From Bolinopsis microptera (Eukaryota > Ctenophora > Tentaculata > Lobata > Bolinopsidae), in NCBI RefSeq assembly GCF_026151205.1, contig NC_087080.1, forward strand, positions 12,633,837-12,697,836: 64,000 nucleotides of DNA, in the 5' to 3' direction. The stretch's first letter is position 1. Each line of letters starts with the position of its first letter. The translations under genes were made by a program, and so were the position numbers. The notes under the pieces are model-generated. The model searched no databases. It saw only the letters and a program-made list of their open reading frames with translations, and was not told the DNA's origin. Positions 2,625 through 63,625 of this stretch are shown piece by piece.

Positions 2625-3156
2625 GCGTTTTGCCGGATTTTTGCCGGATTCTTGAATAACGGAAAATTGTATTGATAAATGTTCTTTAAACTCTTCAAAT
2701 AGTTAGAGCACTATAGTACGGTCAATTTCAGGGAGTATAAACAAATTTCTTCGTCTGTGAGTGGAGATACAAGGTCAAACACAAGAAAATATCTTCATTT
2801 GGCCAGAATTTTTGCCGGATTCTTGAATAACGGAAAATTGTATTGATAAATGTTCTTTAAACTCTCCAAATAGTTAGAGCACTATAATACGGTCAATTTC
2901 AGGGAGTATAAAAAAATTTCTTCGTCTGTGAGTGGAGATACAAGGTCAAACACAAGAAAATATCTTCATATTGCCAGAATTTTTGCCGGATTCTTGAATA
3001 ACGGAAAATTGTATTGATAAATTTTCTTTAAACTCTTCAAATAGTTAGAGCACTATAATACGGTCAATTTCAGGGAGTATAAAAACATTTCTTCGTCTGT
3101 GAGTGGAGATACAAGGTCAAACACAAGAAAATATCTTCATTTGGCCAGAATTTTTT
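2625..3156 (-). repeat. Same ~171-bp satellite in inverted orientation, about 3 units
   Basis: The reverse complement of the unit is seen three times, with GGGAGTATA at about 2731, 2902 and 3073 (171-bp spacing). Together with the forward array at 283-1070 it gives the unit long inverted, internally repetitive arms, the architecture of foldback elements. Confidence 0.9.
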
Positions 3157-3969: not shown

Positions 3970-4757
3970 TTTTTTATACTCCCTGAAATTGACCGTATTA
4001 TAGTGCTCTAACTATCTGAAGAGTTTAAAGAAAATTTATCAATACAATTTTCCGTTATTTAAGAATCCGGCAAAAATTCTGGCCAAATGAAGATATTTTC
4101 TTGTGTTTGACCTTGTATCTCCACTCACAGACGAAGAAATTTTTTATACTCCCTGAAATTGACCGTATTATAGTGCTCTAACTATTTGAAGAGTTTAAAG
4201 AACATTTATCAATACAATTTTCCGTTATTCAAGAATCCGGCAAAAATTCTGGCCAAATGAAGATATTTTCTTGTGTTTGACCTTGTATCTCCACTCACAG
4301 ACGAAGAAATGTTTTTATACTCCCTGAAATTGACCGTATTATAGTGCTCTAACTATTTGAAGAGTTTAAAGAACATTTATCAATACAATTTTCCGTTATT
4401 CAAGAATCCGGCAAAAATTCTGGCCAAATGAAGATATTTTCTTGTGTTTGACCTTGTATCTCCACTCACAGACGAAGAAATGTTTTTATACTCCCTGAAA
4501 TTGACCGTATTATAGTGCTCTAACTATTTGAAGAGTTTAAAGAACATTTATCAATACAATTTTCCGTTATTCAAGAATCCGGCAAAAATTCTGGCCAAAT
4601 GAAGATATTTTCTTGTGTTTGACCTTGTATCTCCACTCACAGACGAAGAAATTTTTTTATACTCCCTGAAATGGACTGTATTATAATGTTCTAACTATTT
4701 GAAGAGTTTAAAGAACATTTATCAATACAATTTTCCGTTATTCAAGAATCCGGCAAA
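3970..4757 (+). repeat. ~171-bp satellite array, forward (second copy)
   Basis: This is the counterpart of 283-1070 at offset +3,687, with the same number of units and the same diverged final unit. Confidence 0.9.
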
Positions 4758-5411
4758 AAAATCAGCGCCAAATAACAAAACTTATCCTTGTGTTTCAGGT
4801 ATTACCTAGTGATCGCTATGTCTATATTACTTCACAGTGGTATATGTGGAAGTTGGTATTATCCTGTTAATATTTGCCGAGTTTTGTGGACAGTTGGCCA
4901 TGATTTTAAGTGATATTTTGGAAAAGTTTGGGAAATTTGCAGCGCGATTATCCGGCAAAAATCCGGCAATTCTGGTCTCAAGTACTTCTGTATGGAACGC
5001 GCGGTTACAATAAAATTAAGCAAAGAACCTCAGAAGTATCGACTGTGACACAAAGGCGCGAGTATATATATTTCAAACTAACTTATTTGCGCGCATGCAA
5101 CACATGCTTTTACAGCTGAAATTTTCTTGGCCATTTCCAAACCAACTTAAGTACCTTACTCGGGAATATTATAGCGGGTTAATTTATGACTAGGAAAATT
5201 TATGACCGGGAAAAATATGACGGAATTTGCCAAAACCCACCACTTTATCCCAGTCATAATATTCTCAACTTTCATAAAACTAATCTAGATCAACTTTTGT
5301 TAAAAATGACCACCGGAGGGGTTGGCTTTTTATCCCGAATTGTAGGTCTGACGAAAAATCGTCCAATTTAGCAGCAAATTGTACCAATACAACGTTCGGT
5401 CGACGCCAAAA

Positions 5412-29100: not shown

Positions 29101-32100
29101 TTGCTGATACGAATTTTCTATTACTGAAATCATTACTGAGAAATCTTTCACAGTTATTGACACAACATACCGCAGATATCGAGACCGAACCAGTGTCCGA
29201 AGGGGAGATGGATACGGAGGAGACAGAGAAGACAGAAAAGACACAGCAAGTTTGTGAAAATAAGGATTCGGAAGAGATCAGTATGGATGAAGGAGAGGCA
29301 ACACAAGAAGATAATACTGAAGTGCCTGTTCTAGAGACAAGCACAAATGTGGAGCTACTGGAGGAGGACAGCTCCAAACCAATAGAAAACGAAGAAGTGA
29401 AAGATGTGGAGCTGGTGTCCGAGGCAGAGGAAGAGGAAGAGGAAGAGGAAGAGGAAGAAGAAGAGGAAGAAGAAGAGGAAGAGGAAGAAGAAGAGGAAGA
29501 GTTGTTGTTATCAGAACCAGATCGAGCAGACGACCTGGTTACCGAAGCTATCACCCCTCCAGCCACAACCCCGCCTCCCTCTCGGTCCCTCCTTTCTGTG
29601 GACGAGGACCAGGATACTGGTAACGATATACTGGATATCTCTGATCCAGATGAAGGAGATATGTTGATAGAAGATTCACTGGCAAGACGCACCGTGAAAC
29701 CAATGGAGGTGGTATCGGTGGTATCCACCCCATTGTCTCCGGTACGGGATCTAACTCCCGTCTCACCTGCCTGTAAGTCCCCAGCCCTGGTTGCTATACC
29801 TTCCTCTTGTAGCGAGAACCTCCTCTCGGATAACCAGGTGGCCACTGAGGAAGGTACCACAGAGAGTCAGGAGGTCACTCCCCTCTCCCCGGAACTCATC
29901 ACTCAATCTGACCCTGATTCCTCAGAGCAAGTTGACCCCACTCCTAGCATAGAGACCGCAGCTCCTGCAGCCGTCACAAGTCAAGACAGTATTATGGTCA
30001 CTTCCACATCTGGAGACAGTGAGGCAGTGATTACATCAGACTCTCTACCTACTGAGTCAATATCCCCTCCTAGTGGATCTCCTGCTCTACCTGTCCCCTC
30101 CTCTGCCTGCCAACCTGTCTCTTCTACCACCGTCTCATCAGACGAACCATCAACTTCACAACCTTCTAACCCGCTACCTGAAAGTGTATCTAATGATGGA
30201 CCCCCAATAGTTAAATCTGTGAATTTCCCTCCATCTGCCCCTCAGCTGGAAGTGCCCACCTCTCTAGTTCTGGAGATATCAGCTCCCTCTACCCCTGATA
30301 ACGCAGTAACCTCCACTTCTGTGGAACAGACAACAGCTCTCTCAACCTCCTCAACCTCCAGAGCTTCATCTCAAGAACCAGGTCCTTCTAAGAAACGCAA
30401 GATCCCACCTACTGAGAAACCTTTTGAGCCCGGTATAATCTGGATAAAACCGGAGCCGGTGGATCCGGACGAGCCGCAAATTATCCCAGCTCCGGTTCCT
30501 GAGCAGCAGCCTGGTCCTAGTAGCGGGGTTTCCAATGCTTCAAGGAAGAGAAGACTGGTGGAGAAACAGGTGTCTGGACTTCCTAGCGCTCCACCTAATG
30601 TCCACGTTACTGCTACTCAATCTCTAGGTTCGTACACTCACTGGGCATCTCTATTGTTTATTCTTAAGTTAGCGTACAATGATTGCTTAATTGGGGCGTA
30701 GGTTTCAAGGATTTCAAGATTCCTCTGGTTTTATAAAACCTAATATAAAGTATTCAATTAACGCGACGAAAAAGTAGTGATCACTTTCCTTAAATTTGAA
30801 TAAAGAGGATTAAGGGATTTACTGTTTTCTGACCAGGACCTTTAACCAAACCTCCTAGCTGGTATTGCAACGTATAAACTCAACTGCTTCTAATACAACT
30901 GTTAGTCCAGCTATTGCTCAGACTCACTCAATATTCCTTACTAGAATACATGTGTACACGTTTATTTGGACTTTAACCGTTTGCGTGTAGGAACAATGAA
31001 TATTGAACAATAACGACTAAAGACCAAATCGGGTAATGATGTCAGGATTATTTAAAACTCAAAAATTTCGCAGACTCTGCCCAGTTTTAAGGTTACAAAA
31101 TGAAGTACGCATTAAGATAAATTGCTATTTAAAATTAATGCAAAATTTATACTGGATTTATAGTTTCAAGGTGGCTGCTTACGTTTGTTACGCCAGGGTT
31201 TGTGCAGTGTGCACCAGAGAATTTTGCAAATTTTGACCAAATAGGAGCGGTTATTATTGAGCAATTCGACCCTTTTTACTCGCTCCATGACTGTATGCTG
31301 ACAGGCTGTGTCATGTGGTCTATCTCAGAAAGTAGTGAATCCTCCTGCGTTCAAAAGTTCACCACGCTAAATAAAAACTATGTATCCCACTTGACATCCT
31401 TTGATCTCACATCAGCCCCAAATCATCAACTAGATATCGCTAACCTCCAAATTGCTCACAAGAGTATCTAACCGCCTCCCCTTTCAGCAGGAGAGGATGT
31501 GCAGGGTCAGCTGCAGAAGATCCTGCAAAGCTCCAGCTCTGGTTCCCTCCTCTGCTCTCTTCTAGCTCAGCTTCCTCAAGAGCTCACCAGCTCTCTTCTC
31601 TCTAAAGTCCTCCACCAGCAGCAGCTACAAAACCAGGTAGGCAGGATATTCAGCTGTTTGAGGTGAAGTGAAATTGGTTTTGTTGATTGAGTGTCTTTTC
31701 ATTTAATTGATCATCAACTAAATATTGTTCATCAAATATTGATCATCAACTAAACAATATTTAAAAATATTGTAGCACTACTCGAACTAGTCAAACCTCT
31801 CTATACCGGGCTTCTCGGGGGAAACGAAACGTGCACGGTATAGAAAAATGTTGGGGAAAGAAGAGCCGGTATATCGAGGTAACTGGTATAGAGAGGCCCG
31901 GTATAGAAAGGTGCGACTGTTCTGTAAACTGATTATGCACGGCGCACGCCGATAATGTTAGAAGAGCCCTCTGTAATACCGGTTACCTCAATATACCGGG
32001 CTCTTCTTTTCCCCCAAACTGTTTCTGTACCGTGCACTTTAGATTTTTGACTGTACTTTTTAACTGTACTGTGATAATGTTACACCTCATTAACAGTTAA

Positions 32101-35100
32101 CACCCCCAGGGTCAGGCTAGTAGTCCGAACTCCGGTGCCCCAGTATTAGTTGGTAACTTCAACACCCCTCTCTCCTCGAATCCACTACCTGTTGCACAGG
32201 GTGTTGCTGTCTACGACCAGCCTCAGTCTCGGAATAATCCTCCCAGAGCCCCATTCTCCCCTGGCTATCAGGTTTGTTCTTTAGTGCAAGCCTGTTTCAA
32301 AAATTAAAAGTAAAAACGACTGGATTATTGGACAGTCCTAGAATCTAGATGGACCATGGCCCGTGAAACTGGGTGAAGATTTCCTTAAATCGTTTATTCA
32401 CATCTACCTTACAACTTTAGAAGCTTATAAATGTTTTGCGTACAAAAGATCGTTGTAACTTAATAGACCTATTGTACCCAGGGTGGGGATATGAACCGGT
32501 TGTCACCGGGGAAACTGGCCCAGAAATACCCTCCTCTCCCTCAGTTGCCTAGGCAACACCGTCAGGGATCTAGAACTCAGGTAACATTATTTATGGCACG
32601 TGGCGATCTTTTGACTTAAAGGGGTCTTATTTTTCATCTTTTTGATGTTCATTTTTACGTGTAATATGCATCTTCTGGCGAATAAATAAAATACAAATTT
32701 GGTACGTTAAGCTATAAGGTACCACAAGAATAGGCATCATGTAGCCGGTGGGCCCGACATGATACGACACATCTCGACACGTCGGGGTTTTGTCAGGGTT
32801 TGTCAGGGTTTGTCGGGGTATGTCGGGGTTTGTCGGGATATGTCGGGGTTTGTCGGGGTCTGTCGGGGTTTGTCAGGGTTTGTCGGGATAGTCGGGGTCT
32901 GTCGGGGTCTGTCGGGGTTTGTCAGGGTCTGTCAGGGTTTGTCGGGGTTTGTCGGGATATGTCGGGGTTTGTCAGGGTTTGTCGGGGTCTGTCGGGGTTT
33001 GTCGGGGTCTGTCGGGGTTTGTCAGGGTTTGTCGGGATATGTCAGGGTTTGTCGGGATATGTCGGGGTTTGTCAGGGTTTGTCGGAGTTTGTCAGGGTTT
33101 GTCGGGATATGTCGGGGTTTGTCAGGGTTTGTCGGGGTTTGTCGGGGTCTGTCGGGGTTTGTCAGGGGTCTGTCGGGGTTTGTCGGGGTCTGTCGGGGTT
33201 TGTTGAAGGATATGTCGGGGTTTGTCGGGGTTTGTCGAGCCTGGAGGCTACATGATGCCTAAGAATTCAACGTGAAAATAACTTTGCAGAGTTCAAGTTC
33301 GAGTCAACAGTTCCCAACAGCAAACCTGCAGAAAACACAGCAGCTGCTGAACGAGTCGACCTACCTACAGAGTCAACTCCAGAACTCACAGTTAACTACC
33401 ATGCAACCCTCCTCGCAGATCAATCAGGTTGGAGCTGATGTTAAAATAACGGAATCATAATGTTAATTCTTATCTATACTACCTAGGGGGGGGGGGGGGG
33501 GGGGCCAAGTGGATATTTGTAGATATTTGGATAATGTCATCCACTTTTTTCGTGAATTATCCATTACAATAATCTACAAATATCTACATTTATCTACAAA
33601 AAATGTATATCTCAAATATGTGCCCAGAAATTCTACTGAATTTTTGGAGATAAATGTATAAATTTGTAGAATTTGTAGAATTTTCGTGAATTATCCATTG
33701 ACAATAATCTACAAATATCTACATTTATCTACAAAAAATGTAATCTCGAATATGTGCCCAGAAATTCTACTGAATTTTTGGAGATAAATGTATAAATTTG
33801 TAGAATGTCATCCACTTTTTTCGTGGATTATCCATTCTACATTAATCTACAAATATCTACAAAAAATGTAATCTCGAATATGTGCCCAGAAATTCTACTG
33901 AATTTTTGGAGATAAATGTATAAATTTGTAGAATGTCATCCACTTTTTTCGTGGATTATCCATTCTACATTAATCTACAAATATCTACAAATATCCACTT
34001 GGCTCCCCCCCTACCTAGTCATGTTTAAATCAAAGTTTATAAAAAACGAGGAGCTTGGGAGACATTTTTCGACAATATTGTACTGCTGTTTGCCGAGCGA
34101 AATTATTTATGAAGCGGGCTTAAAATATTCTTGTCGTAAGTTTAAAGTGAATAACTCTTTTATTCCTCAGGGTCCCCCGCAGTCGACTAGTAATGCAAAC
34201 TTCCAGCAAGGACCGAGTGTACGGCCGGTGCAAAACAGAGCATTTTTAACATCAAACCAGAGCGGCATGCCGCTCGTGCAGAATACACAGCAGAACATTG
34301 CACCGCACGTGCAAAGCGGGCAGCAAAATATTGCCCCAATGGTGCAGAATGTGCAGCAGAACAGTGTTCCGCTGGTCCAGCCACTAGGACACGTGCAGGC
34401 TGCGCACAGTGGAGTGCAGAACAATCAACAGGGTAATCTCCTTCATCAGCAGAATAAAAATGTTTTGATGGGGAACTCTAATCAGATACAAGCTCTAAAC
34501 TCTAATCAATACAAGTCCAATAACCAGGTCAGCTCATCATTTTTCTTAAAATCTACCCGAACTGAACCGAATTGTTGTTTCTGGAATCACATTTTATTTA
34601 TCTCAACAGCTCTTTCTGATTCTCGTAAAATCAATCAAGTCCAGTCATAACACAGTAACTATCTGCTATGTAGTCGATGGTGATCCCTCTTTTACCCAAT
34701 CAATGACTGTTAATCCCTCAGGGTCTGCAGCCGATGGTGATCCCTCTGTCAGATATTCAAACACTTGTTGGTATTGATGATCAGAATAAACAAACAGTTA
34801 TATTGTCCGATGAGTTGAATACTTTGAGAAGAGCAACTAACGCTACTATAATTCGAGCTGGCCAGCAGGGAAACTCTATGATGGGCAAACAACAACAGCA
34901 ACAACAGCAACAACAACAACAACAGCAACTACAACAGCAAATACAACAGCAACCGCAGCAACTGAATCAGATGGGGCAACAGATGGTAATGGGCCAGCAG
35001 GCGAATCTTGGGAATATGGGACAACAAGGTCACCTGGTCCCTCAACAACAGTCTACACTACAACAGTCCCAGTCAGGTAGGGTGAAGTGTTCATATTATC

Positions 35101-38100
35101 ACCATAACCAATATTCAATAAAGATCCAAAATCCCTTTGCAAGTTCAGATAATTTTTACTGTTTACTTCAATTGAATATTTAATTTTGTTGAAAGAGAGG
35201 CTGGACCTTAATGGCCCTCAGTATATTTTATTGTGGTAAAATTAACCATAGGATTATTCACTGCCAAGCCCTAGCTTCCCCTGATCTCCATATTTCACCC
35301 GCTAACTCCACCTCAATCTCAGGTATAACGGTGAACTACGCCCAGCCTGACTCTAGTAGTCACCAACCGAAACTGCTTCCGAAGACACCTCTAATCAGGC
35401 AGACTACACCTAACAGGCGAGCTGGCAAGGAGAAACAACCTTCCAGCGAGATCATCTGTATTGACAGCGATGAAGAAGATGGTGAGTTTTTATTTTATAA
35501 ACTATGAATAGCTAAAATAGCTATAAATAGCTTCTTAGCTTATAAACTAAGTGTTTTAGTTAATAAACAAAGCTATAAATAGCTTCTTAGTTACACGTTT
35601 TTACACACTTACATTATCTGAATCTGGATAGGTTCCACCATAACGTTAAGAGTCCGAGACTGAAATTATGACATATATTTCTCAGTTTTCCTCCAATCAC
35701 GTGACATTTCTACCACATACCCAGACACTAATCACCACTGCCCACCCTAGGAAGTGGTAAGGGTGAGACCGCTGCGCGATGTCGGGTCTACGTGCGGGAT
35801 GAACAGAAGATAGCTGTCATATTCGAGATGATGAAGAGGAAATGCATCAAAACAGACTCAGCAGACCGATCACCTACTGCTCCCAACATTGTTAACATTC
35901 CTCAAGATAGTTTACCGGTAAGTCACGGGGAGGTGGTGGTTCGGTTGAGCCAATCCAATTATCAAACCTAGCCTTCTCCTTTGATCGTGATGTATCGCTG
36001 TTCATTTATTTGATAAGGTTTCTTTGATAATATAGCATTGGCAAGTCTGATGTAACAAACTAACATTGAGTCTTGCTGTTGCGTGCTAACTTCAGATATG
36101 TATTTGTTTTGAATACACCTATAGTTAACTATCTGTACCGCTTGAGATTCACTAAAACTTGTGTTAATTTAAATTTGTTTTTAAGACTACTAAAGTTGAG
36201 ATAAGATTTAAATGTATCTTGGTTCAGGAGCTGCAGCCTATAGTTAACGTATCAGGAAACTTACAAGGATACCTTGTACACGGTCAGACACCCTTCCTAC
36301 TGACTCCTGTTTCTGGCAGCAACCATCTCTTTACTGTCCACCAGAATGGGAAGGAGACTCCAGCCCTACAGGACCACACTTTCCCTGCGTGAGTTGGACT
36401 GGTTATCTGCTGGATAAAGTGTCATTAATAAAACTACAGTTACCATATCGATATATACATATTAACTACTTAGTAATTTTTACTGTTATTTCTTTAATCA
36501 TTAGACGATTATAGTGACTAATAACATAAAACCATTTACCGAACCCTCCAATTTCAGAGGCACAATATTGAACCTGAAAGCGATGCTGGAGAAAGACCCT
36601 CCAGCGCTTCCTCCTCTACCGGCCAGCTCAATCCCTCTCTCCCTGACCGCCACTCCTCTCCCTACTGCTGCAAACCCTATCAACATCTCAACCAGCACCG
36701 TCATCAACTACCAACCTGTATTCCTAAATCAGCAGCAAGGGGCCGGATCTCAGTTACTGTACACCTCCAGTCAGCAACCCCTGAATAGGGAACATTCTTC
36801 TGATCAAACTAGGGTACGTTTATCTTATCAAACTAGGGTACGTTTATCTTATCAAACTAGGGTACGTTTATCTTATCAAACTAGGGTACGTTTATCTTAT
36901 CAAACTAGGGTACGTTTATCTTATCAAACTAGGGTACGTCAATATCTTATCAAACTAGGGTACGTTTATCTTATCAAACTAGGGTACGTTTATCTTATCA
37001 AACTAGGGTACGTTTATCTTATCAAACTAGGGTACGTTTATCTTATCAAACTAGGGTACGTTTATCTTATCAAACTAGGGTACGTTTATCTTATCAAACT
37101 AGGGTACGTTTATCTTATCAAACTAGGGTACGTTTATCTTATCAAACTAGGGTACGTTTATCTTATCAAACTAGGGTACGTTTATCTTATCAAACTAGGG
37201 TACGTTTATCTTATCAAACTAGGGTACGTTTATCTTATCAAACTAGGGTACGTTTATCTTATCAAACTAGGGTACGTTTATCTTATCAAACTAGGGTACG
37301 TTTATCTTATCAAACTAGGGTACGTTTATCTTATCAAACTAGGGTACGTTTATCTTATCAAACTAAGGTACATTTATCTTATCAAACTAGGGTACATTTA
37401 TCTTATCAAACTAGAATACGTTTATCTTATCAAACTAGGGTACGTTTATTCTGAACTTTTCTCTTCCGCTTTTATTGGTGTCCAGGTTTCTGAACCGTAG
37501 AGCTACCTCAATAAACAATATGATCTTTAGAAGGCTCTTTACGAGTTAGGATTTCTGAATGTGAATTAGCTGCGCTTGTGTAAGCTCCCCATACGTTTCC
37601 TTTTCTATTCCTCATCTCTCGATCTAGGAGCCAAGGTAAACGGAACGGGATTATTTGGAACGGTTGTTCCGATCTTGAGGTCGCTCCTCTATATTCATCA
37701 TCAAAACATCTTTTGTCCTTTATTGAAAAGCAAAGGTCATGTCTTTGGATGTAAGATTCTGTAACTATGTAAGTGTGGACCCTAAGTGTGATATTTGTCT
37801 AATTCCATGATGCTTGTTCCGTTTCTATGCGAAGAGAGAGCTACCACGCAGGATTTATAATTATATAGCTAGATAGTAAACGTGATCAATTTACGCTCTC
37901 GTAGACATATCTTTATTGTTTTTCTATTGTTTTATGCCGATTCAATAAATAAATAAATTAAATTAAATGATAATATGTGGTTCAGAATATTATAATTTTA
38001 TATTCGGAACAACAAATTGTTTCGTTCCACAAGGGCTCCTAAAATTATGAGAATTTTACACTATAGGAATAATCCATACAAATATCAACACTGCAAATCT

Positions 38101-41100
38101 AATTATTTAATGGAGATGTTGAATGTGATGTGATCGGTTTAAACAGCAAAGAATCTGTTCACATCTTACGTCATCACTTCTCAAGGCCTTTTTAGGACCC
38201 CTCTGGTATGTCATCACTGTTGTGTAGAATTATATTAGTGATACCCGGTAGTACAGACCACTTACGAATTTACAAGAACAATAATTTTACTGTGTTAATA
38301 TGAAATAAATTAACAGGAGCCCGGAGTGCAGTACGTGGTGGTAGAGAAGCAGCAGAACAACAACAGCACCCTGCAAGTTTCTACAGCTAGCATGAACACT
38401 GGCAGACTTCCCCACGTGGACAACAAAAATCAGCAGCCCGTCAATAATAACCAAGCCACTATTAAACCTACAATAGGCAAGTTCTTAACATATTGACGAA
38501 ATAAAGTATTGCTGTTAATTTTTAAACTGTTTTGTTTCTTGTTACATTTATCGTATTGTATTGTATTTAATAAGCGCTGTGTTCAGATTGTTCTAATTTC
38601 AGTTTATCAATTCAGGTTCAGTGTCACGTGATGGGTTGGTGTTCCACAACATCACCTTCTCCACCGCAGAGAACGGCACCACAACCCGGGTTAACCCCAT
38701 CAACCCCGCTCTCCCCTCCGCCATCAACGCAGCCTCTGTCTTCAGTAACCAGGTTGAAGCACGTGCTGCGCGCGTCATGGTCGGCTCCTCCACCAAGAGG
38801 TACATGCCAATAGCTCCAGCCCCTGGTGGCAACACTCAGGTGAACACACAGCGTCCCCTTCTCCTTCCTAACCAGACTCCTGCCGCTACATTCGGGGCTC
38901 CCAACCAGCAGTTCATCCAGCCTGCTCATCTGCAACCTGCACAGCAACCACACTTGCAACCCGCACTCCTGCAACCTGCACAACCCGCCCACTTGCAACC
39001 GGCTCAACCTCCTCATCTCCAGCCGGTTCAACCACAATCCGGACAATTCTCGACTGGTCCGTCCGGAATCATGTCACCAGGACAAGGACAGTCTGGACAA
39101 ACCATCATAGCCCAGACCTTGCCGGGTAATTATCAGTCCTTCCCTCACGAACAGACCATTCAGCAGACCCAGCCTTTCCAGAATATTCAGCCTCAGAGCT
39201 TACAATCTCAACGTGTTTACAACGTCCTCAACCTTCAGCCCATCTCTCAGGTGACGCTCTAACACATTAATTCTTAATCCACGTAAAGATATAGAGTTGA
39301 AAGGTTGCGTTTTTCTAGGCTTAGTTTAGTGACTATCACATTGTTCCAGCAATTGGAACTCGTTAGTTAACTGATATCAGTTGTTGTCATATTTATTATT
39401 TATAGTTAAACAACCGAATGAAATACCAGCCTTCTCCGTGTTAACATGGAAAACATTGAATAAGGATAACACATACTAAACTTATCTCTGTTCAGCCCCA
39501 GTTGGATCATCAGAATCAGATGCCAGTACAGCAGCAGCTACTCAATCAACAGCAGGTGTCTAATCAGCACTCCCAGCAACAACAACAACCCTCTCATCCT
39601 ACCGGCACTCCCAGCTCCGCTTCTAAGACTCCAGGTTAGAACTAGATCAAGTAATTTCTCGCTTTCCCTCACCATTTTTGCGGCGAGGGAGGGAGAAGGG
39701 TGTTATGGTTAACTTTCTTTCTTCGGCTTTTATATTCTACATATCGCTCATGAAAATGTGCCCAGTATACAATTTTTTTCCATTTTCAGGCGACAGAGAA
39801 GCAAAGCTGAAGATGGTAATGAACTCCCTTTCTCAAGTCCTCTCCCTCCCCATTCAGCAGCAGAAGGAAGTCTTCAAGAACAACCCCATTCTCCGCCAAC
39901 TACTGATGAAGAGAAACGCTGGTAATTAATTGATTATTTAGTTAGATTACTAAGAAATGGTATCTCCCACCGACAGCTAAATAAGATGTATAAAGTAAAT
40001 AGGATTATTTCGCTTAGAAAACACGTGCTATCAATGTGCCAGAACCAACCCTTACCCTACCTTCCACTCCAGACCAGGAACAGAGGAAGGACCCACCTCC
40101 CCCGTACCAAGACAACAGAACACTACCCAAGAAGAGTACAGGTCCTCCTGGTCCTCCTCGGGTACAGACTCTACAGAGTGTCCAGGTAGCGGCTCTCAGA
40201 GGGCAGGCCTCTCAGCAGCGCACTATTCTACCCAAACCCAACGAACAGTCCGCTCAGGTATGTTGCTTTATCTCCGAATCTATTTTGTACGGTAAAAGCG
40301 CTGTACCACAGCCGCTACGTCGTAGCGGCTGTGGTGCAGCTACGAGCTGGCCTCTAAATTTCGCATCTTTGGGTCAATTTTATTGTTATTTCGAACTTTT
40401 ACGGTCTTCGATCAGCTTCTTTATAACCAAGTTTACGTCACCAGAAAGCTCATCTGAAAGAGATGCTGCTACAAAAGACTACTAGTGGTGAGCACAAGAT
40501 GGAGCGAGACGCGCACGAGAGATGGTTACAGCTATCTCAGGAGCAACAGAGTGTTATTCTCGCTGCTGCCAAAGAAAAAGGTTTCCCTTTCGCTTTCACT
40601 TTCTTGAGTATCTAATTGTTCGTATCAATATCATTAATATACCTTTGGATAAGTCAATTCTTAGTTCATTAATGTTACCGGCTAGGTATTACTATTAGTA
40701 AATGTACCCATCTATTGTTTATTTTATCTAAGCTATTCATGATGAAGTGGTTGAACTCTATTCAAATTTATCGTGAAATATAAGACAACCTTTACCTAGC
40801 CGCCCTCTTAACTCTAACTCTCCTCAGTATCTAAACTAAAAAAGAACGAGCTCCAACTCTTACTGAACGCGGCTTATCAGCACATGCACAAGGTGCCCCC
40901 CGACATGCGTAAAGCACTGTTGATTGCAGCACAGGAGCGTATGGATAAGTTGAGCGGCAAGACCACTGAACAGATTGGTGATCCCAATCCAGCACGGGGG
41001 ACTTCTGCTCCGGCTCCAGTTCCAAGTAGAGCAGCCCCTTCCAAGAGCAAGGATGATGATGATCTGGTTATCCTTCAAGAGGTGAGTCGCACAGGACAAA

Positions 41101-43177
41101 GCTTAATTGTCTGATTGGGATAGAGACCTTATTTGGCTGCTCTTCTATAATTTTCTTTTCTACCAGTTACTCTTAGCAGTCTTCTATCAGTCTTAGCTGT
41201 GTTCTGTATACTGAGTTACTAATACTAAAAGTGACGATTTAACGTCGAATTTTTATACATTCAGTAAATCCGTACAATATAACTAATGCCGTGATTAGTT
41301 AGAAAAGTTAGAACAATTATTGTCCGTGTTGCAGGTGCCGTGCAGAGAATCCCGCACAAAGGTAACAATCAGGGACGAGACTGGGGAAGTGGTGACATTG
41401 TTGGGGCGCCCTGCGGAGTCCCTTCCTCGACTCACTAGTCGCTACTCCCAGACCTGGCGCACGCACTTCTCAGGGTGTGCACGAACGCGCGCTATCGTCA
41501 AGACAACAGGACTCCCCACCACTCTGCTGCCGGATCTATCAGAGTGGAGAGATGGAGTGGACGAGGCAGCTAGTGTTACCAGTTCCTGCGCTAGGGTGAG
41601 ACCTTATCATCGTGCTGTCGGAACTAAGAGCCGGATTAAGAGAACTGGTGGAGTGTACGGACAGGACAAACGTTTCCCTGTCAGACAGGAAGTTTCTAAA
41701 ATAGTGACCAGACTCAGGAAGTTCCATTGTGAACGGAGTCGGGGCAGCAAGGCTAGCGAGCTCACCAACGTGTTCTCTCTCACGGACGAGGGACTGGACG
41801 ATGTCGCGGAGTGTATTGCACGTGCGTATGTGAAGGAGAAGAAACGCACGGTGCCCTTAGAACGCCGACGGGGCCGGCCTACCACCCGACACATTCCTGT
41901 CACTAAACCACTCGGCCCCCAGATGCCGAAGATAACAGTTTGTAGGAGCAGTGGGGAGACGCCCCTACACAAGTCTGCACAGCAGGGCTGGTTGGAGAAT
42001 GTGCTGCAGTGTCTTCAAGCTGGAGAGGATATCAACGTACGTGATAATGCAGGCTGGACCCCTCTCCACGAAGCTACTGCTAAGAATAGGGTGGAAGTTG
42101 TGACCTTGTTATTGGAACACAACGCAGATGTAAACGTGGCAAGCAGCACTACAGGAGTAAGACCAATACACGACGCTGTGTTACACGACCTCGTGGAAAT
42201 AGCAGAGTTGTTGCTAGCTGCTGGGGCGGACCCTAAATTACCCACTTTCAGCGGGAAACTGCCGTCTGACTTCTGTAGGAGCACAGCTATGTCTGAGCTA
42301 CTAGATAATTATATCGCTAAGTTGGGTAATCCTGGAGGAGCACCTCCCGGTTGGGGCACGGAGTGTCTGATCGAACTCAGTGAGCTTCCTCACATGCCAG
42401 TCTACAAGCTTGGGCTCGAGGGGACTGAGTGAGTACTTTGATTTTCCTTATCCATTTTATAAGCTCAACACTCTGTCGACGTTTGAATCTCGTCAAATTT
42501 TCGATCTTTTTAAATGGAGTTTAACTGTCACTTATCACTGGTTGATTCCATATCTAGCTTCTATAAGTAAATACTTCCTAGAGAGAAGAACTACTACCTG
42601 CTGACTGATCTAATAGCTCGGCTGAATATTTCTCGCAGTACCTTCAGCATGAACTATCCCGCTTTTAAAACCTACAAAATGAAGTGGAGAGACTTCGCTA
42701 AACTCCTCGGCAAGGTAGGACACAAGGTGTTATGTAGAGGAGAGGGGGTAACTTGGACGGGATTGGGCTGGTATTAGAAAGTGGGCTGGGGTTCTATTTC
42801 CATTCTCGAGATGGGAAGGATGTACCTTTACGAGACATATTTATGTTCGACATAATTCCGGTGACCGAAATGATTTGGGAACGAAGATATGGGAATTTCG
42901 GACCCCAAATTAACATCATGGTATTCGGGGATTTTTTCCATCTCCTTATTTTACAAAAATGAAACCCAATATTTGAGAAGATTAAACGCAAAGATCTTCT
43001 CTGATCAGCTGTTTCAGCTTTTAAACAATTTCCACCGTTAACTCACGAATCTAATTTTTTCAGTCGCCGTTTTTTGTACATCCTGATCGACTACCAAGTC
43101 AAGTGTGTGAATTTATTGAGCTGAACGATGACGCTAACAGGATACTCAATATCAGATCAGAGATATTCGAACCTTGA
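26198..43177 (+). CDS. BCOR/BCORL1 homologue: PRC1.1 Polycomb corepressor with ankyrin repeats and PUFD domain
   Basis: Twenty-five exons, all phases matching: 26198-26261, 26561-26616, 27251-27520, 28144-28240, 29176-30627, 31491-31636, 32110-32271, 32482-32580, 33290-33427, 34171-34527, 34722-35076, 35323-35481, 35751-35917, 36228-36388, 36558-36813, 38317-38476, 38616-39250, 39496-39634, 39790-39921, 40043-40257, 40445-40580, 40828-41081, 41335-42428, 42582-42714, 43064-43177. This gives about 2,316 aa (human BCOR is about 1,755). Residues 1 to about 1870 are mostly disordered Ser/Pro/Gln-rich; about 2076-2190 hold three ankyrin repeats; from about 2213 a PUFD domain follows, which in BCOR pairs with the RAWUL domain of PCGF1 in PRC1.1. 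The start is the first ATG after an in-frame TAA at 26180. Exon 5 may instead start at 29032 (+48 codons). Uncertain sites: weak donors at 30628, 33428 and 40581. The ankyrin-PUFD end is firm; the N-terminal exons are joined by phase and composition alone. Confidence 0.87.
29176..30627 (+). CDS. BCOR-like exon 5: polyglutamate tract, NLSs, SUMO-site motif
   Basis: An acidic start (ETEPVSEGEMDTEE) leads to a long glutamate tract coded by GAGGAA/GAAGAA (about 29425-29505), then ~300 residues rich in Ser, Thr and Pro, then basic clusters SKKRK (about 30390) and SRKRR (30540-30554) that look like nuclear localisation signals. Between them IIWIKPEPVDPDEP contains IKPE, a canonical sumoylation consensus (hydrophobic-Lys-x-Glu). 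The antisense polyserine frame 29090-29860 is only the complement of the glutamate tract. Confidence 0.8.
31491..31636 (+). CDS. BCOR-like exon 6 with NAGNAG acceptor
   Basis: Encodes EDVQGQLQKILQSS and a Leu/Gln-rich end (SSLLSKVLHQQQLQNQ). The acceptor reads CTTTCAGCAG, so splicing may use 31488 or 31491 and add or omit one codon; both keep the frame. Confidence 0.75.
31788..31919. mobile_element. ~132-bp Tigger/pogo-like MITE in a BCOR-like intron
   Basis: Starts AGTCAAACCTCTCTATACC and ends with the inverted GGTATAGAAAGGTGCGACT, with CTCTATACCGGG and AACGAAACGTGCACGG inside. Tigger/pogo-type ends; no coding capacity. Confidence 0.75.
31970..32057. mobile_element. Partial inverted copy of the same Tigger-like MITE
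   Basis: TACCGGTTACCTCAATATACC and CTGTACCGTGCACTTT are the reverse complement of parts of 31800-31895. It ends shortly before the exon at 32110. Confidence 0.65.
32732..33260. mobile_element. 529-bp TIR element filled with a GTCGGGGTTT minisatellite
   Basis: AGGCATCATGTAGCC at the left is inverted as GGCTACATGATGCCT at the right, flanked by a 6-bp duplication AAGAAT (32726-32731, 33261-33266). About 32799-33238 consists of ~44 tandem GTCGGGGTTT or GTCAGGGTTT 10-mers with T/C and A variants. It ends only 29 bp before exon 9. All three forward frames stay open across the repeat, giving Ser/Gly/Val/Cys-rich frames that should not be read as genes. Confidence 0.82.
33487..34010. mobile_element. 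524-bp hAT-type MITE with G18 terminus and 8-bp TSD
   Basis: CTACCTAG flanks it exactly (33479-33486, 34011-34018). The left end is eighteen G's then CCAAGTGGATATTTGTAGA; the right end is its inverse closing in CCCCCC. Inside, a ~140-bp unit with GTGCCCAGAAATTCTACTG is present three times. Same style of end as 13391-13718. It occupies the intron between BCOR-like exons 9 and 10. Confidence 0.9.
34722..35076 (+). CDS. BCOR-like exon 11 with polyglutamine tract
   Basis: Begins GLQPMVIPLSDIQTLVG and passes into 13 consecutive glutamines (mixed CAA/CAG, about 34890-34930) followed by a Gln/Met/Gly-rich region. The mixed codons suggest a fairly stable tract. A 16-bp piece around the exon start (CGATGGTGATCCCTCT) is duplicated in the intron 50 bp upstream, just before the acceptor. 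Confidence 0.8.
35323..35481 (+). CDS. BCOR-like exon 12 with SUMO-interaction-like motif
   Basis: Ends SSEIICIDSDEED (35445-35480): a hydrophobic IICI core directly followed by acidic residues and a Ser, the form of phospho-regulated SUMO-interacting motifs. Similar motifs end exon 2 (LVIH then DD across the junction with exon 3) and exon 22 (DDDDLVILQE, 41052-41081). Confidence 0.75.
36814..37453 (+). repeat. 24-bp minisatellite starting at the 5' splice site of BCOR-like exon 15
   Basis: About 26 units of TTATCAAACTAGGGTACGT-type sequence (period 24 bp, one +2-nt unit near 36937, degenerate last four units). Exon 15 ends at 36813 in CTAGG before GTACGT, and this same junction is repeated in each unit. 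As 24 is divisible by 3 and no stop occurs, the open frame runs on to 37500; I treat it as intron because the donor and the phase of exon 38317 fit without it. Confidence 0.9.
38616..39250 (+). CDS. BCOR-like exon 17, preceded by a GC-AG intron
   Basis: Encodes VSRDGLVFHNITFSTAEN, then an imperfect QPAHLQPAQ repeat region (about 38910-39020) and more Gln/Pro-rich sequence ending NLQPISQ. The preceding exon ends AATAG before GCAAGT, a strong GC-type donor, and only this donor gives phase 1 to match the acceptor at 38616. The antisense Leu/Arg frames here are shadows. Confidence 0.78.
40300..40340. repeat. Near-perfect 20-bp palindrome in a BCOR-like intron
   Basis: ACCACAGCCGCTACG, a central T, then the exact inverse; arms extend to 20 bp with one mismatch. 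It is a GC-rich hairpin of unknown role within the intron 40258-40444. Confidence 0.85.
41335..42428 (+). CDS. BCOR-like exon 23: conserved pre-ankyrin region and three ankyrin repeats
   Basis: The longest well-conserved exon (364 codons). The first ~200 codons are basic and compact, with no name I can give. Then come three ankyrin repeats with the usual hairpin signatures GETPLHKSAQQGW, NAGWTPLHEATAKNRVEVV and TGVRPIHDAVLHDLVEIAEL, then GADPKLPTFSGKLPSDF as a capping segment. The last two repeats match BCOR closely (compare its GTRPLHDAV and ADPTLATYSG). The exon ends in the first PUFD strand (ELSELPHMPVYKL). Confidence 0.92.
42582..43177 (+). CDS. BCOR-like exons 24-25: PUFD domain and stop
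   Basis: 42582-42714 encodes NYYLLTDLIARLNISRSTF and YPAFKTYKMKWRDFAKLL, aligning with BCOR's FLFSDVLKRLKLSSRIF and the following helix; 43064-43177 encodes VCEFIELNDDANRILN and the C-terminus IFEP before TGA. This beta-alpha fold binds the RAWUL domain of PCGF1. The intron 42715-43063 holds only chance frames. Confidence 0.88.
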
Positions 43178-62400: not shown

Positions 62401-63602
62401 TCACAGCGCATTTTTCAACAGTCCACAATCATGAATACAAAGTGGTCTCTTTGGTCTCTCGTTATAAGTCTCAACGTTTTCAATATCGTCCAGCACACTC
62501 ATACCCTCAATGAGACAGCCGAACGCTACATACTGCTGGTCCATCCAGGGGGCAGGAGCAAATGTGATGTAGAATTGTGAGCCGTTTGTGTGGGGTCCTG
62601 CGAGATAAAGTTAGTCAAAATAGAGTGTGAGCCGTTCATTAGTGTTTACTGCCTGGGCCAATAATTAATTAACTGTCCATTGTGTCTAGTTGGTCACTAC
62701 AGAGTGGGCCAGAATAAATAGAGTGAGAAATTCTGTCCTGCTTCACATGTCAACTATGTGTACCTATTGTACTTATTGTGTATCTAGAATTCAGAATACA
62801 AGACAAATAAGTTGCTAACCCCTACCATCATTGGCCATGCCAATAGTTCCCCGCTTCAAGTGTTTCACTGCATAGTTTTCATCGCTGAACTTTCCTCCCT
62901 CAAATGATTCGCTGTTTCCTCCACTTCCATTAACGAAGTCACCCCCTGTAAAGTAAAACCTTAAGAACAAATTTTATAAAATCGTATCATTAAGGAAAGC
63001 CATTTGCTATTGATTTCTATAATAACTAAAAATTTCTATCCGAAGAACAAATGTAAAGAGATTTCACCTTGGACCCAGCCGTTCTTCACGATTCTGTGCA
63101 TGCTGGTTGAGGCGAACTTCTTATTATCTGTTTTTGAACATAAAAGATCGACAAAATTCTTCACAGTATCAGGGACAATGTCTTTGTACAGTTCAAATAT
63201 AACTCGCCCCATAGGTCTTTTGTCGTGTGTGAAATCAACATAAACAAATTCACGCTCGGTATTTTCAAGGTAACCTTTGTATGCTTGATTTGCAAGAGCC
63301 TCGTAGAATGCAGGTGGCCTGAAATCAATCATACCGAATTTGTCTTTCGTCCACCTCATGAAATCATCACCATTTCCAATAAGCTCGCCTTCGACAAAGG
63401 CCATTGTGCCATTCTTGAACCCCCATATTTCTCCTCTGATATCAGTTTTCTTTTCGGTCAGGAAACTCTCCCAGTCAGTGTCAGTCAGCTCATGAAGGTT
63501 GAGCTTCAATGCACCTTTGTGAGTCCGATCAAGTGTCTCAACTGCCAACTTAATCATGTGGAACTCATGATCCTTTATTTTACCGTAAATCTGAACGTCC
63601 AT
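62401..63602 (-). CDS. PPIL6: cyclophilin-like peptidylprolyl isomerase-like 6
   Basis: Three exons on the minus strand, 63602-63068, 62945-62826 and 62597-62401 (stop TGA), phases matching exactly, 283 aa. Residues 1 to about 115 form the N-terminal domain typical of PPIL6 (DWESFLTEKKTDIRGEIW, AFVEGELIGN, RPPAFYEALANQAYKGYL). From about 117 a cyclophilin domain follows: MGRVIFELYKDIVPDTVKNF, MHRIVKNGWVQGGDF, GTIGMANDGPHTNGSQFYIT, PWMDQQYVAFG and a HDCG end. The catalytic Arg of the HRI motif, the Gln-Gly-Gly and the Trp of the cyclosporin-contact region are kept; the Phe of FMIQGGD is Trp as in human PPIL6, so isomerase activity is uncertain. PPIL6 is expressed in motile-ciliated tissue in vertebrates. 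An in-frame stop upstream supports the ATG chosen. Confidence 0.93.
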
Positions 63603-63625
63603 CCTGAAATAAGAGTATCAATTTA

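Follow-up and report, generated by a model that had tools for sequence, protein, structure and literature searches.

A minisatellite with a repeated 5′ splice-site sequence where predicted exon 15 ends in a BCOR-like gene of the ctenophore Bolinopsis microptera

When a tandem repeat carries the same 5′ splice site in unit after unit, which copy would end the exon, and what would the protein gain or lose with each choice? This question is raised by a locus in a 64,000-nucleotide stretch of the Bolinopsis microptera genome (NCBI RefSeq assembly GCF_026151205.1, contig NC_087080.1, positions 12,633,837 to 12,697,836), which we refer to as the window; positions below are counted from its first nucleotide. 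The array is in effect a natural competition experiment, in which 24 exact copies of one 5′ splice site stand almost all 24 nt apart and a single built-in phase change makes each junction distinguishable by its length and frame. It could reveal how the spliceosome chooses among equal donors, and it could show whether a gene for a chromatin regulator tolerates the expansion of repeats at its splice junctions.

A 24-bp array with a repeated donor

Tandem Repeats Finder places a 24-bp minisatellite of 27.0 copies on the + strand at 36799–37449 (unit TCTTATCAAACTAGGGTACGTTTA; period 24, 97% matches, score 1235), which bears out the original prediction of a donor repeated about 26 times within 36795–37500. 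Exon-like DNA ending in ...GATCAAACTAGG|GTACGTTTATC leads into the TCTTATCAAACTAGGGTACGTTTA repeats, and CTAGG|GTACGT lies at 36813/36814, as had been anticipated. In our computed gene model, the array straddles the 3′ end of predicted exon 15 and continues into the intron. The repeat finder, the motif counts, and the gene models all support the proposal of a donor-bearing minisatellite on a predicted exon–intron junction. The proposed 24-bp step describes the period of the array but fails in one place, since the unit at 36922–36947 (+ strand), as read from the sequence, is 26 bp long and changes the phase by 2.

Counted by unit register, the donor reads AGG|GTACGT in 24 of the 27 units and GTACAT in two, and it lacks GT in one. 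The array contains the hexamer GTACGT 24 times, and the two strands of the whole window together contain it 44 times, against 19.03 expected; none of 100 dinucleotide shuffles reached the window total. The altered donors belong to units 24, 25, and 26, three of the last four, where the site is weakened (GTACAT at 37368 and 37392) or lost (no GT at 37416). This clustering at the 3′ end, a post hoc observation, suggests that the 5′ side of the array is its homogeneous side.

The units resemble the 5′ splice-site consensus, and the donor they carry scores 4.06 with our position weight matrix (PWM). This strength is mid-range: 1.9% of the GT sites on the + strand of the window score as high or higher, the array copies included. 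A search for U1 genes gave 10 matches over the cut-off, with the canonical ATACTTACCTG 5′ end in all three loci read. The computed energy of U1 pairing with the array donor is −5.8 kcal/mol; among the 21 other donors listed, 17 pair more strongly, two equally, and two more weakly. Judged by its sequence, the array donor seems weak, though usable. One base ahead of it, standard units have an acceptor-like CTAG, with an AG acceptor score of 1.87 that is matched or exceeded by 7.8% of the AG sites on the + strand of the window. Introns of about 24k − 1 nt inside the array, a length that follows from arithmetic, are conceivable.

The unit appears to be private to this locus. When up to two mismatches are allowed, its 19-base core is matched at 29 sites of the 264.65-Mb assembly, stretches reading N being beyond judgment, and 27 of these lie inside the array. 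The remaining two are both at the two-mismatch limit, and a reversed control also gave two. At up to two mismatches there is no sign of a dispersed genomic repeat, as the off-array matches equal those of the control in number, and an initial DNA search had likewise returned at least 13 rows, all within the array. Because the core matches are confined there, the array is best read as a local expansion. The DNA of exon 15 matches a single place in the assembly, where no second haplotype copy was found. Viral and prokaryotic collections, from which records near this genome may have been excluded, gave no match to 30 consecutive bases of the array searched exactly.

Exon end and reading frame across the donors

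Where exon 15 ends was judged from a gene model built by dynamic programming with general splice-site tables for animals; the 5′ and 3′ ends that it gives the gene are provisional. In a first run, in which exon 15 was within the training set and GC donors were disallowed, the 15th exon of the model spans 36558–36813 (+ strand) and leaves in phase 0 (...QPLNREHSSDQTR|). This run inserted a 10-nt microexon at 38196–38205 in place of exon 16, which repaired the phase. The region was then re-scored locally with GC donors allowed at a hand-set penalty and with a fixed start position for exon 15 and for exon 17; exons 15 and 16 and the array were excluded from training, and part of exon 17 (38800–39250) was retained. 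The top path of 385, the best 25 of which were listed, joins 36558–36813 to 38317–38476 with a score of 61.1; the microexon path, at 44.7, was rejected once GC donors were permitted. Both runs stop at 36813, including the one trained without exon 15, and so agree with the earlier proposal that exon 15 ends at the first donor of the array.

That donor, AGG|GTACGT at 36814–36819 (+ strand), is the predicted main 5′ splice site by motif count, PWM, gene model, and local re-scoring. Predicted exon 16 (38317–38476, + strand; sequence reading and re-scoring) enters in phase 0 and leaves in phase 1 through a GC donor, TAG|GCAAGT, and predicted exon 17 (38616–39250, + strand; gene model) enters in phase 1, so that in the model the phases of exons 15, 16, and 17 fit one another. 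The intron predicted after exon 16, with its donor at 38477–38482, would be of the GC–AG type. Exon 15 might instead end elsewhere, for example at the weak donor CCA|GTCAGC at 36769, which also gives an open path, and the array would then be a minisatellite like any other in an intron, its donors all inactive. That path, the best that dispenses with an array donor, scores 36.5, however, against 61.1 through the first donor of the array, and we regard such an exon end as very improbable.

Given this gene model, the first six donors are all in phase with exon 16. Donors 2–6, at 36838, 36862, 36886, 36910, and 36934 (36838–36939, + strand), would each add VRLSYQTR by frame computation. Donors 1–6 would thus contribute 0–120 nt (+24 to +120 nt for steps 2–6) and zero to five copies of this octapeptide, and with each of them the modeled frame has no stop before its end at 42428. 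Beyond the sixth donor the phase is different, because the unit at 36922–36947 is 26 bp long. Donor positions 7–27 (36960–37445, + strand) retain GT in 20 of 21 cases (18 GTACGT and two GTACAT, with one lacking GT). All 20 would add +146 to +626 nt, 2 modulo 3, and would meet a stop in exon 16, where the two translations printed end in ...GSPECSTWW*.

These phases recast much of what had been expected of the protein. The absence of a stop within the array was predicted correctly, the frame of the exon remaining open up to a stop codon at 37498–37500. The expectation of eight in-frame residues per step is true of five steps only, the rest being shifted by the 26-bp unit. The repeat was also misnamed: the exon's own frame gives VRLSYQTR, and the predicted LGYVYLIK arises only after the 26-bp unit, in a frame that would be read only in truncated products or if the intron were retained; in the latter case translation would stop after 313 codons counted from exon 15. 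Finally, an in-frame protein repeat driven by array length is not supported: 25 usable donors follow the first, of which five preserve the frame and 20 truncate the protein, and the coding score of the repeat is that of non-coding sequence. The array does not have the properties of a coding VNTR, since 20 of these 25 donors do not fit the frame of exon 16 and the composition is not coding-like.

The codon make-up of the repeat scores −4.48 bits per unit, against +26.3 bits for the whole of exon 16, figures that come from a small training set within this window. Because this make-up is non-coding, the model score drops by about 4.5 bits with each in-frame step, and paths from donors 2–6 to exon 16 score 56.6, 52.1, 47.6, 43.1, and 38.7. 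A narrowed form of the original prediction would have donors 2–6 used at useful levels, yielding a protein with a variable in-frame VRLSYQTR repeat. In its favor, donors 1–6 are identical and leave the modeled frame open to its end, and in human IFI6 the repeat units reportedly serve as donors (PMC4526556). However, the coding score is negative, with about 4.5 bits lost per added unit, and with five steps at most the number of protein repeats would not be set by overall array length. We consider this outcome unlikely.

We judge it reasonably probable that this is a junction minisatellite seeded from the exon 15 splice site, spliced mainly at its first donor, with possible leaky in-frame splicing at donors 2–6 and truncated transcripts from the donors beyond. 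Local tandem duplication of about 24 bp across the 5′ splice site of exon 15 would have seeded the array in the BCOR-like gene, and expansion would have carried it to its present extent, which takes up the initial ~640 bp of intron 15. The donor at 36813/36814, the first and the closest to the exon, would be the main one in splicing. If donors 2–6 were occasionally used, one to five copies of VRLSYQTR would be inserted in frame, and use of later donors would shift the frame past the 26-bp unit, reach the stop in exon 16, and truncate the protein; such transcripts would probably be cleared by nonsense-mediated decay. The sequence of this one genome fits an array seeded from the junction and one from which a donor was recruited alike. 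Since 24 of the donors are identical, the preference for the first is drawn from exon length, coding score, and general knowledge of splicing; when equal donors compete, the intron-proximal one can also be favored.

If distal donors of the array were often used, a share of the transcripts would run into the stop, and array length would tune the dose of the BCOR-like protein. All 20 usable donors past the 26-bp unit give the exon 16 stop in the model, and 18 distal donors share the hexamer of the first. Such splicing would nonetheless require an exon of roughly 400–880 nt, and we think it improbable. Another possible source of stops lies just downstream, in a strong acceptor-like site at 37486–37500 (+ strand; PWM and frame computation) whose first exon base is separated from the array by a gap of 36 bp. 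A coding route through the acceptor at 37486 was rejected, as it meets a stop with donors 1 and 7, the two that were computed. Together with a donor-like AAG|GTAAAC after 37635, the same acceptor could delimit a poison exon.

An hnRNP A1-like motif over the donor

The hexamer TAGGGT overlaps the donor in 25 units of the array, compared with nine occurrences on the + strand of the remaining window. It is combined with GTACGT in 24 units, and outside the array the + strand of the window does not contain TAGGGTACGT. Two reports give UAGGGA/U as the hnRNP A1 SELEX motif (PMC4932749, PMC3794818), and a third names UAGGGU as a high-affinity hnRNP A1 site (PMC1379639). As a further element of the first-donor reading, UAGGGU in 25 units, an hnRNP A1-site match overlapping the donor, may help to silence the downstream donors. 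The same protein is described as spreading in the 3′-to-5′ direction (PMC3794818), and the first donor could be covered equally well. Neighboring donors are perhaps not occupied together, because the spliceosome footprint, given as about 25 nt on each side of the junction (PMC1379639), is close to the unit length.

Alternatively, the array might act while unspliced, as a decoy or silencer that, by binding either U1 or a protein like hnRNP A1, modulates splicing of the first donor. The recurrence of TAGGGT with GTACGT in 24 units, and of TAGGGTACGT nowhere else on the + strand of the window, would suit such a role. So would the report that a 5′ splice site is used less well when a nearby tail contains hnRNP A1/A2 sites or another 5′ splice site bound by U1 (PMC1379639). 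Against it, the combination of motifs may simply be what was duplicated, and the array lacks unusual RNA structure: a fold of 181 nt gave a z of −0.01, with 91 of 200 shuffles folding at least as well, and one of 701 nt gave a z of −0.58, with six of 20 shuffles at least as good. We rate this role as quite unlikely. A broader scheme would make the array a length-set splicing rheostat, in which six in-frame donors yield a protein ladder, later donors lead to decay, an hnRNP A1-like protein acting on UAGGGU sets the balance, and the amount of a Polycomb corepressor is adjusted by the number of copies; we offer it as a speculative and rather doubtful extension.

Comparable systems and the surrounding gene

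The minisatellite of human IFI6 (6-16, G1P3) comprises about 26 copies of a 12-bp unit and starts near the end of exon 2. Turri, Cuin, and Porter reportedly described it in 1995 as having multiple splice donors, and a later account, citing Turri et al. 1995, states that its units act as splice donors (PMC4526556). The present array resembles it in being a tandem array that overlaps an exon end and has units resembling 5′ splice sites. It differs in its 24-bp unit, in belonging to an unrelated gene, and in that most of its downstream donors are out of frame, owing to the 26-bp unit. The likeness is one of anatomy, as judged from sequence and gene model; the functional hallmark of the kind is the use of several donors, as reported for IFI6. 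The array is a probable further case of an IFI6-type splice-donor minisatellite, and by that precedent the use of several of its donors is possible in principle. The precedent limits the surprise of the array; IFI6 was the sole comparable splice-donor array among the papers we consulted, and others may be in print.

In fission-yeast genes, 24-bp AGGT duplications are described with splice signals in the copies and introns that run across them (PMC4974935). Both systems thus have 24-bp tandem copies with splice signals. However, the yeast copies are described as exonic, with AGGT supplying both intron ends in the proposed model. Here the junction reads AGGGT in 25 of 27 units, AAGGT, which contains AGGT, in one, and AGAAT in one, and the acceptor is predicted downstream of the array, immediately before 38317. 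The duplicated segment does not yield both the GT and the AG of the predicted intron, as AGGT-type intron gain would have it.

The identity of the gene is drawn from its downstream exons. An open frame at 41299–42432 encodes ankyrin repeats (Pfam Ank_2, PF12796, E 2e-26), and the predicted exon within it, 41335–42428 (+ strand; Pfam, with the donor at 42428 picked by eye), carries the ankyrin repeats, with a PUFD-like segment beginning in it. A second frame, 42571–42777, has a partial PUFD match (Pfam, E 1.5e-4, 22.3 bits). Joined by hand, the two exons match PUFD (PF16553) with E 1.4e-6 and 28.8 bits, just below the 29.5 cut-off, over 61 of 114 positions. Searched against the whole assembly, the PUFD model matches this locus only (20.1 bits, E 0.107). 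A PDB search with the ankyrin frame returned general ankyrin proteins, none of them named BCOR among the best 60 of 398. The Polycomb corepressors BCOR and BCORL1 have ankyrin repeats followed by PUFD; here the ankyrin repeats, a feature not specific to BCOR, precede sequence that is PUFD-like, with a partial match under the cut-off. Because the PUFD score is below its cut-off and no BCOR-named PDB match appeared among those listed, we call the gene BCOR-like rather than BCOR. A human BCOR-ITD in "exon 15" is described (PMC7948083); it is another kind of duplication than the present array, and we take the shared exon number to be a coincidence.

Other repeats lie in and around this gene. Its predicted introns also hold a 10-bp array of 45.4 copies (GTCGGGGTTT, 32781–33237) and a 128-bp array of 3.6 copies (33518–33995), which with 36799–37449 makes three long arrays in the gene, and its predicted exons contain a long run of glutamate at 29421–29501 and a run of glutamine at 34888–34962. 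Elsewhere in the window, a 171-bp unit forms arrays at 284–1072 (4.6 copies), 2637–3155 (3.0 copies, reverse complement as judged from the consensus), and 3971–4759 (4.6 copies). Small repeats beside these arrays recur at an offset of 3687 bp (1494/5181 and 2151/5838), a pattern suggesting that some 3.7 kb has been duplicated here. At the far end of the window, a PPIL6-like cyclophilin frame lies on the − strand at 63036–63617, and in the PDB it is most similar to "Probable inactive peptidyl-prolyl cis-trans isomerase-like 6" (E 3.3e-33).
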